Made by a program: the position numbers and the translations under genes. DNA of 48,618 bases. It comes from a virus. Position 1 is the stretch's first letter. The number at the start of each line of letters is the position of its first letter. Location: positions 1-48,618 of IMG/VR virus record IMGVR_UViG_3300031977_001417. The stretch is one strand, 5' to 3'. Below the pieces are notes generated by a model, which was given only the letters and a program-made list of their open reading frames with translations, was not told where the DNA came from and ran no database searches. Below, one piece after another: positions 9,272 through 40,976 of this stretch.

Positions 9272-9853
9272 CTATTTAAATGTAGATTCTCTAAACCAAA
9301 TATTACACGCCCATTTAACGCCCATCCCCACAGGATCTCCTCCGTGTTTGGACCAAGGATGTCTGACAGTTCCGCCATTAAAAGTATTTTGGAATACCAC
9401 CATACGCCCTTGTTTAGCGTCAATAGTTCTTTTCAATTCAGGGAAGGTTGTTCCTCCTCCTGACATTGGTGTGTTCAAATATATCAATGCTGTTAATACC
9501 CGTTGTCCGCCTCTAGCTTCTTGTTCAGGCATGTGCTTCAACTCAAATGTATCAAAATGGGGCTGATACTCTTGTGTTTGATCGTAACTAATTACCTGCA
9601 TTGCCTCACCCCATTCCACAGGCATGCCCACTATAGCACAAACTCTGCGGTATACTTTATCAACCAGCACATCTTCACCCTTAGCTATAAAATGAAAATT
9701 GCCAGTTCTCGATGCGTGTAAACCATCATTCTCGTCTGACATAACAGTTGCTCTTGTCATGTGAGGCTCGGCGAGTTTAATTATATGTTCACATTCTTCC
9801 GAGGTAAGAATGCTATCTCGGAAACACACCAAGGGGTGAATATTAATCAGCAT
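9272..9853 (-). CDS. Prolyl 4-hydroxylase-like 2OG-Fe(II) oxygenase
   Basis: A 193-residue protein of the prolyl 4-hydroxylase catalytic-domain type. The iron ligands are H99-x-D101 (YQPHFDTF) and H170 (RHPWSKHGGDPV), and K180 in GVKWACNIWFRE is the 2-oxoglutarate-binding lysine typical of this family. The protein substrate is unknown; phage proteins or host EF-Tu-like targets are possible. It lies six bases after regA with no strong ribosome site, so translation probably depends on regA. All catalytic residues are intact, in contrast to the protein at 15710-16246. Confidence 0.92.
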   Translation of the reverse strand: MLINIHPLVCFRDSILTSEECEHIIKLAEPHMTRATVMSDENDGLHASRTGNFHFIAKGEDVLVDKVYRRVCAIVGMPVEWGEAMQVISYDQTQEYQPHFDTFELKHMPEQEARGGQRVLTALIYLNTPMSGGGTTFPELKRTIDAKQGRMVVFQNTFNGGTVRHPWSKHGGDPVGMGVKWACNIWFRESTFK

Positions 9854-12976: not shown

Positions 12977-13555
12977 TTAGCCACCAAATTTTTCTTTAAC
13001 GTCAGTAGAGTCTGAAAGATTGAGATTAATGTGGCGTCCTCCTTTGCAGTACTCTAGTACTACTTCGGGTTTAGATGCCTCATAGGGATCTTCCTCTGCA
13101 TTAGACATCTTACCTTCTTCTTCAAATACCTTCTCTACTCGCATGTTATCAATAACAGCCGCGTATCTCCATGAGCGAATGCCAAAGCCTAAGTTATCTT
13201 TAGCTACCAACATACCCATGGCATGTGTAAATTGTGCTGAGCCGTCTGGAATCATTTTTACATTTTTAATTCCAAGGTCCTTCGCCCAAGCATTCATTAC
13301 AAAGGTATCGTTTACAGACAAACAGTAAATCTCATCAATGCCATTAGCAATGAACTCTCTGTACAATTCATCATATCCTGGTAGTTGATATGTTGAACAT
13401 GTCGGTGTAAACGCACCAGGTAAAGCAAAAAGTACTACACGTTTTCCTCCAAAGAGTTCTTGAGTAGTATTGTTTCGCCATACCATTTCTTCTCCTTCTC
13501 GAATACGAGTCGGAAATTCTAAATGGGGGATCTGTGTCCCTTCAATTTTATTCAT
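12977..13555 (-). CDS. Peroxiredoxin (Prx5-like)
   Basis: A 192-residue thioredoxin-fold protein with the peroxidatic motif PGAFTPTC (C53), typical of Prx5 or AhpC/TSA-type peroxiredoxins that reduce hydrogen peroxide and organic peroxides. The core (LYREFIANGIDEIYCLSVND) and the segment FVMNAWAKDLGI also match Prx5. The C-terminal 30 residues extend past the usual fold and include one more Cys in LEYCKGG. It overlaps the sulfotransferase gene by eight bases, with GAGGTG upstream of its ATG. A peroxide-defence enzyme between clamp and clamp-loader genes is unusual. The glutaredoxin at 23892-24125 could be an electron donor. Confidence 0.92.
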   Translation of the reverse strand: MNKIEGTQIPHLEFPTRIREGEEMVWRNNTTQELFGGKRVVLFALPGAFTPTCSTYQLPGYDELYREFIANGIDEIYCLSVNDTFVMNAWAKDLGIKNVKMIPDGSAQFTHAMGMLVAKDNLGFGIRSWRYAAVIDNMRVEKVFEEEGKMSNAEEDPYEASKPEVVLEYCKGGRHINLNLSDSTDVKEKFGG

Positions 13556-20341: not shown

Positions 20342-21847
20342 TCAATACTTTAGGTTATACCCTACATGATATTCAATGCCACCAAGGGGATAGCCGTTTT
20401 GGATCTCATATTTCTCATCGGTAATGTTGGTAATTGAAGCAAACATTCCATTGAATTCGTAGCTGACATCTACTGTAGTTACCCATTGATTGCTGCTTAC
20501 CTGAGCAGTTAAATCTTTCCACTGTGCAGTTATACTACCCATCCAAGGAGATACCATTTGTTGATCACTATCAGTATACCCTACCATGACATTTACATTT
20601 GCATCGCCCAAATTATAATTGTCCATAAATCTTACACCGCTTGTAGAATACCCTCCAGTGTTTTCAAATTGATTGAAATCAAAATTGTATGTGATGCCTT
20701 CGTTAAAATTATATGCAAAGGCTGTAACAGGTCCTAATGAAACATCGATGCCGTAGGACTCTTCAGCATCTAAATTGTTATTTGACATGACGTATGCGTC
20801 TCCATATTGTTCATATAATGTTGGTTCTCTGTATGCCGATCCAATAGCAACATCTACACCAGTGAGTACGGGAACCATAAATCCTACTCTGGCTGCTACA
20901 TTAGTTCCATCTGTTCTAAAGGAAAAACCATCGTACTCAGCATAAGCTTCTATTCTTTCTCTGGTTTGTCCTGCAAATTTTTCAGCGTTTATTGTGGCAC
21001 CATATAGTAAATCGCCGTATTCATTTCTTGCGTCGCCGTAAAATCTTTCTGACTTGCTCTTATATCCATTACCCTCATTTGGAAAGTTTGCATTGTTAAA
21101 ACTATATCCTAAGGTTAGATTATCATTATTATAAGATAGTGTACCTCGTTCCCCCTCTTGTTTACAATCATTAGACCAAAGAGACATATTAAATTCTAAT
21201 TCTGATACCTGAGTAAGGGTAGGCTGATAACATCTGTCGTAGTCGTATGAATAATCAGTGTACACTATATTAAAGTTATTGTATTTTCCACGGAAGGTAT
21301 AGTTTTTGTATCTGTCTTTTTCTTCGTTGTCTGATCTTACTGAATCATTTTTAGCATCAAAAGCTGTAAATGAAACTCCTAGTTCGTTAGATACATGTAG
21401 TAGTCTACTTCTTGATCCATATCGAAATACTAATCTGTCATCAAATGTATCTTCAATGAACACTGTCCCTGCAAGAGATCCAGATCCATAAATGGTAGAG
21501 TTTCCACCGTGTACTACTTTTATCTTTTCTGAACCAGTAGGAATGTCATGAGCAAAATCATACCAACCAGTTCCAGAGTCGTTTACAGGAATACCATTGC
21601 GGTATATTTGAGAGTGGATAGTTTGTTGTCCGCGTTCACGAAAACCAGCAAACCCACCGTAGCCACCTTGTGTATATTGCATCGCGGGTTGAAGCATTTC
21701 TGATATTGTCAGATCTAGTTCAGGCTCTGCTTGTAGTTCTGTTATTGGTGCACTAGTTACTACAATCTCTTGAAGTTCTTCTGCAAAAATATTGTTAGTG
21801 AAGTATAAAAATAATACTAATAAATTAATCCGTACGCAATGCACCAT
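20342..21847 (-). CDS. TonB-dependent outer-membrane receptor
   Basis: A 501-residue protein with every landmark of a TonB-dependent receptor. A signal peptide ends near A22. A TonB box (EIVVTS, 27-32) follows, then a plug domain (about 35-135) with YRNGIPVND and the motif VVHGGNSTIYGSGSLAGTVF. A beta-barrel of alternating aromatic strands ends in the aromatic residue Tyr (GGIEYHVGYNLKY). Such receptors import ferric siderophores, cobalamin, haem or glycans using TonB energy. It is shorter than BtuB (about 594 residues mature) but has plug and barrel. Flanking genes are phage genes on the same strand. The start overlaps a small ORF by 31 bases. Confidence 0.9.
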   Translation of the reverse strand: MVHCVRINLLVLFLYFTNNIFAEELQEIVVTSAPITELQAEPELDLTISEMLQPAMQYTQGGYGGFAGFRERGQQTIHSQIYRNGIPVNDSGTGWYDFAHDIPTGSEKIKVVHGGNSTIYGSGSLAGTVFIEDTFDDRLVFRYGSRSRLLHVSNELGVSFTAFDAKNDSVRSDNEEKDRYKNYTFRGKYNNFNIVYTDYSYDYDRCYQPTLTQVSELEFNMSLWSNDCKQEGERGTLSYNNDNLTLGYSFNNANFPNEGNGYKSKSERFYGDARNEYGDLLYGATINAEKFAGQTRERIEAYAEYDGFSFRTDGTNVAARVGFMVPVLTGVDVAIGSAYREPTLYEQYGDAYVMSNNNLDAEESYGIDVSLGPVTAFAYNFNEGITYNFDFNQFENTGGYSTSGVRFMDNYNLGDANVNVMVGYTDSDQQMVSPWMGSITAQWKDLTAQVSSNQWVTTVDVSYEFNGMFASITNITDEKYEIQNGYPLGGIEYHVGYNLKY

Positions 21848-33081: not shown

Positions 33082-33969
33082 TTACGTTCCAATTTGGTTA
33101 CCAAATACATAAGCATGATTACGAGTGGCAACCTTGTATCCTCGTTTCATAGCTTCGACACAAATGTCTGCTACCTCTTCTTGTTCTTCTTTTGTAGCAC
33201 CAACTGGCATAATCCAAATATCCGGCACAGTCATTTCTGCAAATGAACAATACTCTTGAACTTGACGCACATAACCTTCTATTTCTTTCCAGCTCTCATC
33301 TGTGCCGTTACAAACAAATTTAAGACAGCCAGTGCTAGTTGTATTAAAAATGTAAGACATAAAATTATCAACATCTACTTTTCCAACCTCGCCAGCAGTG
33401 TGTAGTGTTTTAGGACTAATAGCCCAATGCCAACGAATGCCCATCTCTGCTAAGTATATGTTAATAAAGTCTTGCAAGTCTTTGTTTAGTTTTTTTGTGC
33501 CATTTGTTTCTACTGTAATAATCTTAGGCACATTACCGCGAATAAGAAACTCATTAACCATAGCCTTCATCTGTCTTTGTTGTAGCATAGGTTCGCCACC
33601 TGTAAAGGCTAACATGTTTTCTTGTTTTGTAATAGGGTGTGTAAATTTACCATAAGGAAGAAGCTCTTCAAGTTTATTACATGCCTCTTCTGGATTTGTA
33701 TCTTGTGCAAGATGTTTATACTTCATTGACCAAGAGTATGAGGAGTCACAACCATATTCCCATACAGGAAGATCCTCTACTTGTTTAACATTAATTAAAT
33801 CGTAGTCTTTATATGGTAGTTTCCAAGTATCTGGATCTGAGGGTTTAGTTTGTCCAAAGCCATTACACTCTAGGTTACAACCAAAGAATCTAATCCATAC
33901 CGTTGGCGTACCAGCCAGTTCAGCCTCGCCTTGGAACGAATAAAACATTTCAGAATAACGTATCTTCAC
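33082..33969 (-). CDS. queE: QueE-like 7-carboxy-7-deazaguanine synthase
   Basis: A 295-residue radical SAM protein starting like QueE (FYSFQGEAELAGTPTVWIRF). The cluster cysteines are C31-x3-C35, and C74 (YGCDSS) is the likely third ligand, so about 38 residues separate the second and third Cys, a longer form of the known QueE loop variation. TGGEP (123-127) and a later VETNGT follow. It converts carboxytetrahydropterin to CDG, the base precursor. A sigma70-type promoter lies at 34006-34033 inside the end of gene 55. Confidence 0.9.
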   Translation of the reverse strand: MKIRYSEMFYSFQGEAELAGTPTVWIRFFGCNLECNGFGQTKPSDPDTWKLPYKDYDLINVKQVEDLPVWEYGCDSSYSWSMKYKHLAQDTNPEEACNKLEELLPYGKFTHPITKQENMLAFTGGEPMLQQRQMKAMVNEFLIRGNVPKIITVETNGTKKLNKDLQDFINIYLAEMGIRWHWAISPKTLHTAGEVGKVDVDNFMSYIFNTTSTGCLKFVCNGTDESWKEIEGYVRQVQEYCSFAEMTVPDIWIMPVGATKEEQEEVADICVEAMKRGYKVATRNHAYVFGNQIGT

Positions 33970-37825: not shown

Positions 37826-37833
37826 TATTTATA
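37826..37833 (-). promoter_or_regulatory. Late promoter TATAAATA before the small basic and tail-tube-like genes
   Basis: A perfect box overlapping the iscA stop, 16 bases before the small gene's ATG at 37809. The leader would be only about 10 bases, so the main product may be the tail-tube-like protein downstream. Confidence 0.5.
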
Positions 37834-38149
37834 ATTGAAAATTAACACTGACTCCACAACCACATGATGCAGTTTCTTTAGGATTGATATATTTAAAAAA
37901 AGAATTCAATCCCTCTTTTACATAGTCTAAAGTCATTCCCTCAATAAAAGGAATAGACTCTTGATCTATACAAAACTGAAACTTGCCAAAATCTAATATG
38001 GTGTCGCTGTCAGTAGCCACATCAGACCTAAACACATATTCAAAACCAGCACAACCCCCACCAGTAACACCGAGTCGTATACAAGATATGTTTTCGGTTT
38101 CGTTAAGTGTGAGAATCTGTTGAATGGCTTCATTAGTAATGTTAATCAT
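37829..38149 (-). CDS. iscA: A-type iron-sulfur carrier (IscA/ErpA/HesB)
   Basis: A 106-residue A-type carrier with the three conserved cysteines C33 (GGGCAGFEY), C96 and C98 (ASCGCGVS). It transfers Fe-S clusters to client proteins; the window has clients such as the two radical SAM enzymes. It overlaps iscU by eight bases, so both are made together. Single HesB-like genes are common in cyanophages. Confidence 0.95.
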   Translation of the reverse strand: MINITNEAIQQILTLNETENISCIRLGVTGGGCAGFEYVFRSDVATDSDTILDFGKFQFCIDQESIPFIEGMTLDYVKEGLNSFFKYINPKETASCGCGVSVNFQL

Positions 38150-38585
38150 GTTTAGTCATTTTTTCTAACCAGGTTTCGTTGCGCCCAGCTTTTTTCTCTT
38201 CCCAGTCTTGTATGGCTCTTTTAATACTGTCCTCTGCAAGAACTGAGCAATGTATCTTAATAGCAGGTAACTCTAACGCCTCTGCTATTTCTCTATCTTT
38301 TATTTCTTTTGCTTCTTCAATAGTTTTGCCAATTAACATTTCAACAAACATAGAAGAAGATGCAATTGCACTACCACAACCATATGTTTTAAACTTTACG
38401 TCAACAATAGTTTCTGTTTCCGGATTTAATTTAAGATCTAGTTTCATAACATCACCACATGCAGGCGCACCTGTCATGCCTGTTGCAACATTTGGATCAT
38501 TTGGATCAAAACGCCCAACACCATGTTCATGAGGGTTATTTGTAACCTTCTCAAACCTGTCTAAAACTTTTTGTGAGTATGCCAT
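38142..38585 (-). CDS. iscU: Iron-sulfur scaffold protein IscU
   Basis: A 147-residue IscU with cluster cysteines C43 (GAPACGD), C70 (YGCGSA) and C113, and the HscA-recognition-type motif LPAIKIHCSVLAEDS. It assembles Fe-S clusters from host IscS sulfur and passes them on. The C-terminus is extended (WEEKKAGRNETWLEKMTKHD). A TATAAATA box ends only five bases before its ATG, directly after the terminator of the lipoprotein unit, so it is the first gene of a new unit. Confidence 0.95.
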   Translation of the reverse strand: MAYSQKVLDRFEKVTNNPHEHGVGRFDPNDPNVATGMTGAPACGDVMKLDLKLNPETETIVDVKFKTYGCGSAIASSSMFVEMLIGKTIEEAKEIKDREIAEALELPAIKIHCSVLAEDSIKRAIQDWEEKKAGRNETWLEKMTKHD

Positions 38586-38602: not shown

Positions 38603-38626
38603 AAAAAAAGCCCCTTTCGAGGCTTT
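38603..38626 (-). terminator. Intrinsic terminator of the repeat-lipoprotein unit
   Basis: On the minus strand an 8-bp stem (AAAGCCTC with GGGGCTTT, one U-G pair) closes a GAAA tetraloop and runs into a T tract. It lies 20 bases after the lipoprotein stop. Confidence 0.88.
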
Positions 38627-38645: not shown

Positions 38646-39548
38646 TTATGGTGTTGCTGGAGGGTTTAACGTAGCATTAATTGTTGCCTGTAAATCAGCA
38701 ATAATTTGAGCATAGTTTGTAGATTGTTCACCTAACAAATTCATACCAGTTGTACCTACTGTACCAACAGCATCAATACCGTGTGTACCTAAGTTAGTAA
38801 GGTGTGTCATACCCTCACTTCCTGTTAAGTAAATTCCTTCCATACCCCACTTTGCAGTAGATGTAATAGAATCAAATCCAGCAGTTGCTACTGCGCCGAC
38901 ACTAGTCATGCCAAACTGTCCCATCTCATTGAGATTGTCCATACCAGTTGTTGCTACGCTATCAACAGTTGAAAAGCCATAGCCTGCAATAGTTGTGGTA
39001 GTATCAAACCCTGTATTTGCTACTGCTACAGTCTGATCTCCTGCAGTATTAAGTGCATTAAATCCTGCCAGTGCAACATCAACTGTGGCAGTACCGCCAG
39101 CAGCTGCAGCGCCAGCCCACGAACTACCTAAGTTAGTTACCATGTTTTGGTTACCTAACTGAATTGCTTCGTTGGTAGCAAAACTAGCCATCTGCACTTC
39201 CATTGCATTGTCGCTAGCGTTCATTGAAACAGCGGCATTAAGTGCTCCTAATCCTAATGTTCCAATCGTAGGTGTTAAAACTTGAGCCCACTTTAGCGCA
39301 TTACTCTCGATGTACTGAGGTGTAACTGTGGGTGTTTGTGATAGTGCGATTGCCATAGTAGCCGCTGTTGCAGCGCCAGGCTCGCCCGATTGTGCCATTT
39401 GTGCCAGTGCTTGATATCTAGCAGCGGCAATCATTGTTTGTGCATCTTGCGATGCCTTAACTGCAGCATAGTATTCCTGAGCAGAATTACTAGCACATGC
39501 AGTTTGAACAAACAACATTGGCAATAGTAAAAGTAACTTCAATTTCAT
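38646..39548 (-). CDS. Exported lipoprotein-like protein with nine 11-residue repeats
   Basis: A 300-residue Ala/Gly/Thr-rich protein. A signal peptide (MKLKLLLLLPMLFVQTACAS) with Cys at 18 suggests a lipoprotein, though the lipobox is imperfect. Residues 179-277 are nine tandem 11-residue units, each starting x-G-(F/M/I), for example TGFDTTTTIAG, YGFSTVDSVAT and TGMDNLNEMGQ. Eleven-residue periodicity fits hendecad coiled coils or an amphipathic rod. No homologue is known to me. AGGAG precedes the ATG at 39548. It has its own promoter (39609-39637) and terminator (38603-38626). Confidence 0.8.
   Translation of the reverse strand: MKLKLLLLLPMLFVQTACASNSAQEYYAAVKASQDAQTMIAAARYQALAQMAQSGEPGAATAATMAIALSQTPTVTPQYIESNALKWAQVLTPTIGTLGLGALNAAVSMNASDNAMEVQMASFATNEAIQLGNQNMVTNLGSSWAGAAAAGGTATVDVALAGFNALNTAGDQTVAVANTGFDTTTTIAGYGFSTVDSVATTGMDNLNEMGQFGMTSVGAVATAGFDSITSTAKWGMEGIYLTGSEGMTHLTNLGTHGIDAVGTVGTTGMNLLGEQSTNYAQIIADLQATINATLNPPATP
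38718..39012 (-). repeat. Nine tandem 33-base coding units (11-residue repeats)
   Basis: These encode residues 179-277 of the lipoprotein-like protein. Units are conserved in protein pattern (x-G-F/M/I at positions 1-3) more than in DNA, so they look old rather than freshly duplicated. Read on the minus strand from about 39014 to 38718. Confidence 0.75.
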
Positions 39549-39608: not shown

Positions 39609-39637
39609 ATTATAATAAACCTAGAATAATATGTCAA
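39609..39637 (-). promoter_or_regulatory. Perfect sigma70 promoter of the repeat-lipoprotein unit
   Basis: TTGACA, 17 bases, TATAAT between the gene 23 terminator and the lipoprotein ATG (about 60 bases). Confidence 0.85.
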
Positions 39638-39652
39638 TTGTAAATAGTTGGC

Positions 39653-39679
39653 AAAAAAAGGGGGAGCTAATGCTCCCCC
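39653..39679 (-). terminator. Intrinsic terminator after gene 23
   Basis: On the minus strand GGGGGAGC pairs with GCTCCCCC around a 4-base loop, followed by seven T. It lies about 30 bases after the gene 23 stop. Confidence 0.93.
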
Positions 39680-39683
39680 CAAG

Positions 39684-39710: not shown

Positions 39711-40976
39711 TTACATTAAGTTTGTAACTTTAACGCTTCTGTAGTACTGGTTTCTGTCTGCAGTAAAGTTATCTGCGTCAGTGTTACCAGATCCGTCAAC
39801 TACGAATGGGTTAGCAATCATGCCGTAACGTGTCTTAAAGCCGATTTTAGGCTGGAAGGTGTTAGGATCAATCGCTCTAACCATTTGTAGAGGAACGTAA
39901 GGACAGTAGAAAAGACCAGCGTCATAAGCACTTGAACCTTTGTATCCTGCTACGTAGAACTGGCTAGCAGCTCCAGTGTTAGCTGAATAAGGATCAATGT
40001 AGACTCTGTATCTACCGTTTAGTACACCAGCAAATGTGTTGCCTGTGTCGTCTACGTTTAGGTTAGTTGAAAGTGCTGGAGCGTAATCAAGTACACCAGA
40101 CATAGCTAGTGCAGATGCAACGTCTGCGGAACAGATAATGAAGTTACCTTTCCCTCTACGTGTATCTTGTGCAATTACGTTAGCGTCTCTTTCGATGTTG
40201 AAAAGTAGACCTTTGAAACGTTCTACTGACCATCTACCGTTGGAATCAACGTCTAGGTCAAAAGTACCAGGTGTAGCTGTAGAAGCTGAACCGGTTTTAG
40301 CTACTTTGTAGATTGTTCTAATTACTTCTCTGTTGATCTCAGCTAGGATTTCCTGTGAAAGGATGTTAGCCAATTCGCCTTCTGCGTCTAGGCCATGGAT
40401 CGCTTTAAGGTCCTGAGCTAATTCAACGGTGTATTCTGCTTTTAGCGCTCTTGACTTAGCTGTAACAGTTGTCTTCTCGATTGAGAAAGCCATCTCGTTA
40501 AGTGTAGTAGAGTCACCAAAACCTTCTGCTGTAGAAGTAGAAACACCATTACCTGTTGTGTAAGCACCATCAACAGGGTTGCTGCCAGCGTGTGTACCAG
40601 CACCTGAGAAGTCAGTATCGGCTTCGTTAAATAGTGCTTCAGTACCTGTTTGGCTGCTGTAGTGTGATTTCATGGCAAAAATAAGGCCTGTTGGTCCAGT
40701 CATTGGCTGAACACCACAAACATCATAAGCCATAAGGTTTGGCAATGCACGTCTAACTAGGCTGATCAAAATAGGATCATAGTTGTCGATGCTTGCGCCT
40801 GTTGCGTTAGCATGTGTTGCTTCGAATAGAGCAGCTTTTTCTTCACGAAGAGCTTTCTCCTGGTTTTCGAGAACAACGGTGGTTACAGCACGCTTGTACG
40901 GATCTTGAATCTCTGAGAGATCAGGATGCGCTAAAACGGGCTCCCACTTTTTTTGTAGTTCTTCTGAAAGATACAT
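39711..40976 (-). CDS. 23: Major capsid protein (T4 gp23)
   Basis: A 421-residue gp23 with the marine T4-like signature NYDPILISLVRRALPNLMAY followed by DVCGVQPMTGPTGLIFAM. The N-terminal scaffold-binding part ends in LFEATH, which fits the (L/I)xE cut rule of the T4 prohead protease after E52. It forms the hexameric head shell. AAGGAG precedes the ATG; a TATAAATA box lies at 41021-41028. A strong terminator follows. Gene 24 is not in the window. Confidence 0.98.
   Translation of the reverse strand: MYLSEELQKKWEPVLAHPDLSEIQDPYKRAVTTVVLENQEKALREEKAALFEATHANATGASIDNYDPILISLVRRALPNLMAYDVCGVQPMTGPTGLIFAMKSHYSSQTGTEALFNEADTDFSGAGTHAGSNPVDGAYTTGNGVSTSTAEGFGDSTTLNEMAFSIEKTTVTAKSRALKAEYTVELAQDLKAIHGLDAEGELANILSQEILAEINREVIRTIYKVAKTGSASTATPGTFDLDVDSNGRWSVERFKGLLFNIERDANVIAQDTRRGKGNFIICSADVASALAMSGVLDYAPALSTNLNVDDTGNTFAGVLNGRYRVYIDPYSANTGAASQFYVAGYKGSSAYDAGLFYCPYVPLQMVRAIDPNTFQPKIGFKTRYGMIANPFVVDGSGNTDADNFTADRNQYYRSVKVTNLM

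Follow-up and report, generated by a model that had tools for sequence, protein, structure and literature searches.

The gene at positions 38646–39548 (minus strand) of the window, i.e., of the whole 48,618-nucleotide stretch analyzed here, encodes a repeat lipoprotein that is probably a hitherto undescribed auxiliary in disrupting the cell envelope. We assign a probability of about 45% to the reading that it is an outer-membrane lipoprotein that aids lysis or the breach of the outer membrane and, by the features tested, is neither an o-spanin nor a u-spanin. A lysis auxiliary is the most likely role because members of the family ride with endolysin, holin, and spanin genes, and it is preferred because it fits both late expression near lysozyme and spanins and early expression as a stand-alone gene, whereas superinfection exclusion fits early expression only. 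Among the observations that count against it are the early-class promoter in the window, which is unusual for a lysis gene, and the low confidence of the domain models. In the open-access literature, no description of the family was seen among the matches listed. Outer-membrane breach by abundant marine phages is largely unassigned, and this widespread family, linked to lysis genes in dissimilar phages and present as a single copy in eight out of eight virus records searched, would provide a concrete candidate.

The source is a marine T4-like phage, a virus of bacteria, represented by one virus record 48,618 bases long. Its major capsid protein gp23 has 70% identity to gp23 of Methylophilales phage Melnitz and 69% to that of Pelagibacter phage HTVC008M, and PHROG matches among the neighbors comprise the portal, head protease, scaffold, tail tube, UvsY, and helicase families. 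The lipoprotein gene (300 aa; ATG at 39548, stop codon 38646–38648) directly follows the gene for gp23 (39711–40976, minus strand; phrog_138, E 1.1e-159) and precedes a gene for a NifU-like Fe-S scaffold protein (38142–38585, minus strand; phrog_8429, E 6e-27).

Export signal, N-terminal domain, and relatives

The window protein has a basic start, a Leu-rich stretch, and Cys18. Residues 1–17 (MKLKLLLLLPMLFVQTA; 39498–39548, minus strand) form the Leu-rich signal peptide with the top Kyte–Doolittle window, and Cys18 (39495–39497, minus strand), the presumed lipidation site and the sole Cys of the protein, is followed by Ala at +2. The lipoprotein-type N-terminus proposed from the sequence alone is borne out by the relatives: Cys18 is invariant in all 49 rows of alignment A3 (48 of 52 trimmed homologues plus the window protein), and residue +2 is Ala, Thr, or Gly, never Asp, in 53 out of 53 distinct N-termini. 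The lipobox of the window protein, V-Q-T-A-C, is non-canonical at −3, where Gln is atypical, and a signal-peptidase-I site, ACA/S, is a possible alternative when the window sequence is judged alone; the Pfam model LPAM_1 matches one out of 18 family members. The protein is thus predicted to be exported and is probably lipid-anchored; we infer lipidation at Cys18 and an outer-membrane location.

Scans of IMG/VR for the long, repeat-containing form yielded 33 loci and then the best 80 of 86. The most distant relative, L102, lacks 11-mers; used as a query, it gave 22 loci, and a short-form profile search of viral contigs gave 150, of which the best 80 were kept. The conserved N-terminal domain (residues 18–135; 39144–39497, minus strand) is common to these short-form phage lipoproteins: hhalign matches the long-form alignment A3 to the short-form alignment A4 with a probability of 99.3 and an E-value of 8.2e-21 across 116 columns spanning the signal peptide and the N-domain. 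The short forms (L102, L106–L205) have AFVGIAGKIQAP and a variable tail after the domain, with no 11-mers. Owing to this homology with repeat-less forms, the 11-mer rod is best read as a putative addition to a widespread phage lipoprotein domain.

No curated family gave a convincing match. For the window protein, Pfam gave only DUF3619 at E 0.51 (best among members 0.014), PHROGs gave no match at E ≤ 1, a profile search of the PDB gave no chain at E ≤ 10, and PADLOC gave no known defense model; a PADLOC match of L010 to GajA (E 0.0054, a short stretch) and a single weak match to a toxin-subunit model among the 25 NCBIfam families listed were judged to be chance. The named-phage collection gave no relative beyond one chance match at E 1, with low-complexity masking suspected; Ala/Thr/Gly-rich queries yield almost nothing at E ≤ 10, and zero matches at this threshold from a 293-aa query suggest that the low-complexity filter masks much of the protein, which makes this absence weak evidence. 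Foldseek found an unnamed viral protein, A0A516LWI0, with 30% identity over 267 columns, which shows that at least one relative has been deposited. No relative came up in two scans covering bacterial and archaeal genomes.

In NCBIfam, Lpp/OprI alanine-zipper lipoproteins are matched by 15 of the 54 members of A5, a hand-picked set of sequences (best E 5.2e-5); these matches are weak and are mixed with many other lipoprotein families, which probably share only the signal peptide. Together with the Ala-rich helical composition of an outer-membrane-type lipoprotein, early expression, and the growth of the rod in whole units, they would suit a structural brace that, similarly to Lpp, keeps the outer membrane placed or spaced during remodeling and does not break it. 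Unlike Lpp/OprI lipoproteins, the protein is phage-borne and its rod spacing is 11 and not 7. We consider such a brace clearly unlikely, given that the matches are weak, that the window protein has no C-terminal Lys for wall attachment (it ends in NPPATP), and that relatives are located in lysis cassettes.

The rod of 11-residue units

Residues 179–277 (38718–39014, minus strand) comprise nine 11-residue units: TGFDTTTTIAG, YGFSTVDSVAT, TGMDNLNEMGQ, FGMTSVGAVAT, AGFDSITSTAK, WGMEGIYLTGS, EGMTHLTNLGT, HGIDAVGTVGT, and TGMNLLGEQST. As the sequence-only reading had noted, Gly occupies position 2 in nine out of nine units and Phe, Met, or Ile position 3 (F/F/M/M/F/M/M/I/M in unit order). Self-matches peak at lags of 11 (z 5.4), 22 (z 5.6), and 33 (z 4.5), and nine in-phase Gly at any period of 5–30 occurred in none of 20,000 shuffles of residues 150–290, the best being eight, twice. 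The repeats had been described as perfect, which holds for the spacing and not for the sequence: mean identity between units is 26% at the protein and 43% at the DNA level. With such identities, and with Tandem Repeats Finder reporting nothing on the repeat region, the repeat is an old, protein-level one; to judge from its sequence, it is held by selection on spacing, not by recent duplication.

The same regularity is seen among relatives. The consensus over ~205 distinct units is G-[FM]-T-T-[VIL]-x-x-[VI]-[AG]-T-[AT] (five of the 52 distinct proteins, having no anchor or being too short, were left out of the unit-position profile), and 207 distinct units, the window included, contain no Pro, no Cys, and only seven Lys and one Arg vs. 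102 Asp and 86 Glu. Two anchors lying outside the repeat are separated by a distance equal to 5 modulo 11 in 20 out of 23 measurable distinct proteins, and hence these 20 relatives differ by whole 11-residue units. The claimed hendecad periodicity is thereby upheld; the break of period in homologues, which had been named as evidence against it, is seen in three of the 23, and the short forms are repeat-less. Among 54 distinct clustered sequences, which include fragments and members poor in repeats, the longest in-phase Gly run ranges from 1 to 13 with mode 6. The C-terminal tail of the window protein (residues 278–300; 38649–38717, minus strand) lacks the C-x8/9-C ending that is found in 39 of 55 distinct relatives, some of them truncated.

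AlphaFold2 applied to A3 (mean pLDDT 65, pTM 0.26) places the repeats within a single helix, residues 154–294, with pLDDT mostly 80–92 from residue 200, in agreement with the long helical rod envisaged earlier; pLDDT is below 50 for residues 77–137, and the N-domain, modeled separately from 54 sequences, reached only 61. The rise of a helix is 1.5 angstrom per residue, and the modeled 141-residue helix would be ~21 nm long. If the unit is numbered from Gly as in the consensus, its non-polar positions are 1 (Gly), 2 (Phe/Met), 5 and 8 (Val/Ile/Leu), and 9 (Ala/Gly, some Ser). On an 11/3 helix, positions 8, 1, 5, 9, and 2 line up in a single non-polar stripe in which Gly/Ala alternates with the large residues of 8, 5, and 2, and the spacing 5, 8, 9, 12 is the hendecad pattern 3-1-3-4. 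A hendecad coiled coil is possible in terms of residue pattern, and the non-polar positions fit a straight stripe on the 11/3 helix; however, the strongest hydrophobic harmonic in 37 proteins is 4/11 (131 degrees), exceeding 3/11 (98 degrees), and we have toned down the plain hendecad reading for this reason. The right-handed coiled coil proposed from the sequence alone is at most possible.

An undecad coiled coil is known in tetrabrachion. NadA is likewise reported to have an 11-residue repeat on an envelope-anchored stalk (PMC6191539). Unlike these undecad coiled coils, the repeat lipoprotein has Gly in every unit and Ala/Gly mid-stripe, and its oligomer is putative.

Eleven-residue periods are also typical of amphipathic 11/3 helices lying on membranes, as in alpha-synuclein, apolipoproteins, and perilipin 4, and the rod might similarly coat the inner leaflet of the outer membrane. 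Its non-polar arc on an 11/3 helix, estimated by hand from position frequencies, spans ~131 degrees, and perilipins also have 11-mer repeats whose number varies between members (PMC5889406). Unlike in perilipin 4 and alpha-synuclein, the polar face here is acidic and nearly Lys-free (eight Lys/Arg vs. 188 Asp/Glu in the 207 distinct units); when the net charge per 33-mer of Plin4 was changed from +1 to −1, lipid droplets were no longer bound unless hydrophobicity was increased as well (PMC5889406). The acidic, Lys-poor face makes a membrane-lying helix very unlikely.

Association with lysis genes

The ORFs around 80 long-form loci were clustered, the clusters being named from a PHROG scan of one representative each. 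The common block consists of a transcription-regulator-like gene, the lipoprotein, a small unnamed protein, phrog_455, a cytidyltransferase, and a GH24-type lysozyme, with Rz-like (phrog_739) and Rz1-like (phrog_812) spanins ~3 kb upstream and the lysozyme ~2.4 kb downstream of the lipoprotein. In the retrieved flanks of the long-form loci (best 80 of 86), lysozyme is seen in 42, the Rz-like gene in 33, and the Rz1-like gene in 34 out of 80; 58 have a GH24 lysozyme or an Rz/Rz1-like spanin, and 22, including the nearest relatives of the window, have no recognized lysis gene in these flanks. The window, a 48.6-kb fragment, contains no lysozyme, spanin, or common-block gene.

As many loci are near-copies and counts overstate their independence, the arrangements weigh more than the counts. 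The lysozyme ORF overlaps the lipoprotein start by ATGA in L008 and L039; the order Rz–Rz1–lipoprotein, with a gap of ~20 bp, is found in L096 and L098; the lysozyme faces the lipoprotein from the other strand at ~40 bp in L080 and at ~0.8 kb in L036 and L040, and lies 2.2 kb upstream on the other strand in L091; finally, the spanins are downstream of the lipoprotein in L067–L071. By our estimate, the chance of a random gene falling within 3 kb of one lysozyme gene in a 160-kb genome is a few percent.

The short forms behave similarly. A recognized endolysin of the GH24, GH19, or phrog_315 type is present in 43 out of 77 short-form loci and lies at most 2.2 kb downstream in 41 of the 60 having at least 2.7 kb downstream, and the holin family phrog_3427 is also present around them. 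Neighborhood evidence of this kind is guilt by association; it supports lysis among the roles offered by the sequence-only reading, and nothing was found in support of adhesion, another of them.

A second, unrelated small lipoprotein-like gene, with a signal ending in GC, directly follows the lysozyme in L081 (9782–10150); such a gene is present in 21 out of 80 long-form loci (best 80 of 86) and has no PHROG match. The gene just ahead of phrog_455 in Melnitz, HTVC008M, or C48C1 was considered as a counterpart of the lipoprotein and rejected on reading those proteins. In Phage C48C1 (Kyanoviridae), a lipoprotein-like ORF annotated as hypothetical (L208, 1664–3085) has two CxxCH heme motifs and presumably resembles a di-heme cytochrome c peroxidase.

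An early-class gene within a late block

In the window, the lipoprotein gene forms a transcription unit of its own. An intrinsic-terminator-like hairpin (GGGGGGAGCATTAGCTCCCCC followed by a T run; 39659–39680, minus strand) separates it from gp23, a perfect sigma-70 promoter, TTGACA-N17-TATAAT (39609–39637, minus strand), lies with its outer end 68 bp ahead of the listed TTG start and 89 bp ahead of the ATG, and a second terminator-like hairpin (38607–38626, minus strand) lies just 3′ of the stop codon. Nine perfect sigma-70 sites occur in the window vs. 0.06 expected, and several of them are 37–68 bp upstream of non-structural genes, e.g., UvsY and the 5412–7910 gene. The T4-late type TATAAATA is found at −52 to −60 of gp23 (~52 bp ahead of the gene), scaffold, and sheath. 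With this promoter amid TATAAATA genes, the lipoprotein gene is of the early promoter class, while the block around it is late. The 12 late-type TATAAATA sites in the window (4.5 expected), together with the sigma-70 sites, make a readable early/late map.

The arrangement is retained in some relatives. L038 has a terminator, TTTACA-17-TACAAT with an extended −10, the gene, and a terminator; L037 has the promoter, the gene, and a 3′ terminator, with an extra ORF between the gp23 terminator and the promoter; and L046, also beside gp23, has a promoter matching at 11 out of 12 positions and a terminator after the gene. The gp23-side hairpin also follows gp23 in L038 and, ahead of the inserted ORF, in L037, and a different hairpin occupies the same 3′ place in L038, L037, and L046. 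Neither Melnitz nor HTVC008M has a counterpart in the interval from gp23 to the next tail gene. T4-like phages are lytic. The lipoprotein gene looks like a moron-type insert: absent from the same place in these two phages, it has its own promoter and terminator in the window and L038, similarly to morons, a likeness drawn by sequence only. Most relatives are apparently late genes, with TATAAATA within 80 bp in 25 out of 51 distinct homologue upstream regions (mean 0.3 and maximum 3 in the resampled null). Decoration of the capsid, suggested by the position beside gp23, was ruled out by the signal peptide and the early promoter.

Some phages make envelope proteins that exclude superinfecting phages, e.g., Llp of T5 and Imm and Sp of T4. 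An early-made envelope lipoprotein could act in this way, masking the receptor or blocking entry of the DNA of a second phage, and it is the early-type promoter that keeps superinfection exclusion in play: the site is one of the nine perfect ones, of the class that also precedes UvsY and the 5412–7910 gene, the unit is flanked by terminators of its own (a feature retained in L038 and in the more distant relative L046, again beside gp23), and no lysis gene adjoins it in the window. For receptor blocking, proposed from the sequence alone, this promoter is the sole support, and the T4-late promoter in 25 of the 51 homologue upstream regions would act too late for exclusion. Relatives also share operons with lysozyme or spanins, and, to our knowledge, the known exclusion lipoproteins are small and have no such repeat. 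On the whole, we regard exclusion as unlikely.

The genes that follow might suggest yet another role, that of a helper in Fe-S or iron handling. The NifU-like gene is followed by a gene for a small protein (37829–38149, minus strand; phrog_17776, E 1.7e-23, an unnamed PHROG of unknown function), which, from its Cys motifs, we take to be an IscA/SufA-type Fe-S carrier; a NifU-like gene is also found near the lipoprotein in L007/L038, L008/L039, and L041, and this phage also codes for a TonB-receptor-like protein. In the window, however, the two units are divided by a terminator, NifU is missing from the vicinity in most relatives, and no metal-binding motif was seen in the lipoprotein, which makes such a role highly improbable.

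The NifU-like and probable IscA-type genes (37829–38585, minus strand) sit between gp23 and a tail tube-like gene of a T4-like phage. The product of 20342–21847 (minus strand; 501 aa) has a signal peptide, a TonB-box-like EIVVTS, a plug domain (PF07715, E 1.5e-9), and a C-terminal Tyr, features by which it is classified as a TonB-dependent-receptor-like outer-membrane protein. It has 29 relatives in viral contigs, three of them on contigs that also carry the repeat lipoprotein, and a SusC-type receptor of a marine megaphage has already been published (PMC9723777). A redoxin (peroxiredoxin-like; 12977–13555, minus strand), a 2OG-Fe(II) oxygenase (9272–9853, minus strand), and a weak match to a 4Fe-4S single cluster domain (33082–33969, minus strand) suggest an iron and redox theme in this phage.

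Comparison with spanins and proposed mechanism

Similarly to o-spanins such as lambda Rz1 and T4 PseT.2, the repeat lipoprotein is a phage protein of the outer-membrane type, with a lipoprotein signal peptide and a lipobox; its relatives are located in lysis cassettes, and in L096 and L098 it comes immediately after the Rz–Rz1 pair. Unlike them, it is far longer and has a repeat rod; in the window, it has no i-spanin partner and its neighbors are gp23 and the NifU-like gene, and in L096 and L098 an Rz1-like gene already stands between. PHROG spanin families gave no meaningful match, one out of 18 members hitting the Rz-like spanin phrog_1275 at E 0.17. As many loci have a separate Rz/Rz1 pair, the lipoprotein is not needed as an o-spanin there.

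In potentially reaching across the periplasm as a single lipoprotein, it resembles u-spanins such as T1 gp11, the features compared being those given in PMC6139136. Unlike u-spanins, it is predicted to be helical and not beta-rich, and it has no C-terminal transmembrane segment: the Kyte–Doolittle maximum past residue 20 is 1.28 (residue 90), and the C-terminus is polar. Having failed the place and similarity expected of an o-spanin and the C-terminal membrane segment of a u-spanin, it is filed in neither class. The short-form phage lipoproteins share with it the homologous N-domain and the lysis-cassette neighbors.

Under the preferred reading of a lysis auxiliary, the protein would be exported, cleaved, and presumably lipidated at Cys18, and the lipid would hold it on the periplasmic face of the outer membrane. 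The conserved Ala-rich helical domain would lie near the membrane, and beyond it would come the rod of helical 11-mers. Through the non-polar stripe of this rod (Gly, Phe/Met, Val/Ile/Leu, Val/Ile, Ala/Gly), copies could pack laterally in a putative oligomer. Its step in lysis would be an auxiliary one, the outer membrane being weakened or crossed once endolysin has cut the wall. Many relatives would be switched on late, near lysis genes; in the window phage and its near relatives, the gene would have been relocated to a site after gp23, where it forms a unit of its own under an early sigma-70 promoter. Such an arrangement may be tolerable for a protein that has no effect before the wall has been cut.

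A bolder version would make the family a third kind of lysis lipoprotein beside o- and u-spanins, an outer-membrane rod built in whole 11-residue steps that self-assembles via its Gly/Ala-centered stripe, acts on the outer membrane after the endolysin, and was re-wired from late to early expression in one marine T4-like lineage; we consider this version doubtful. The rod runs up to 13 units in the relatives seen, and its strict 11-residue steps offer a natural test of whether rod length matters, while the change of promoter class leads to a clean prediction on timing.

The authors of the Melnitz paper note no lysin-like gene other than gp67 in that phage and suggest a curli pore as the means of timing lysis (PMC9004378). 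A gene for CsgG was found in one of the eight records searched, at a contig end. This record is that of L046, where a CsgG-type curli pore gene (G008:C1:73567–73917) shares its contig with the lipoprotein gene next to gp23; it brings to mind the CsgGF pores known from Melnitz-like phages.
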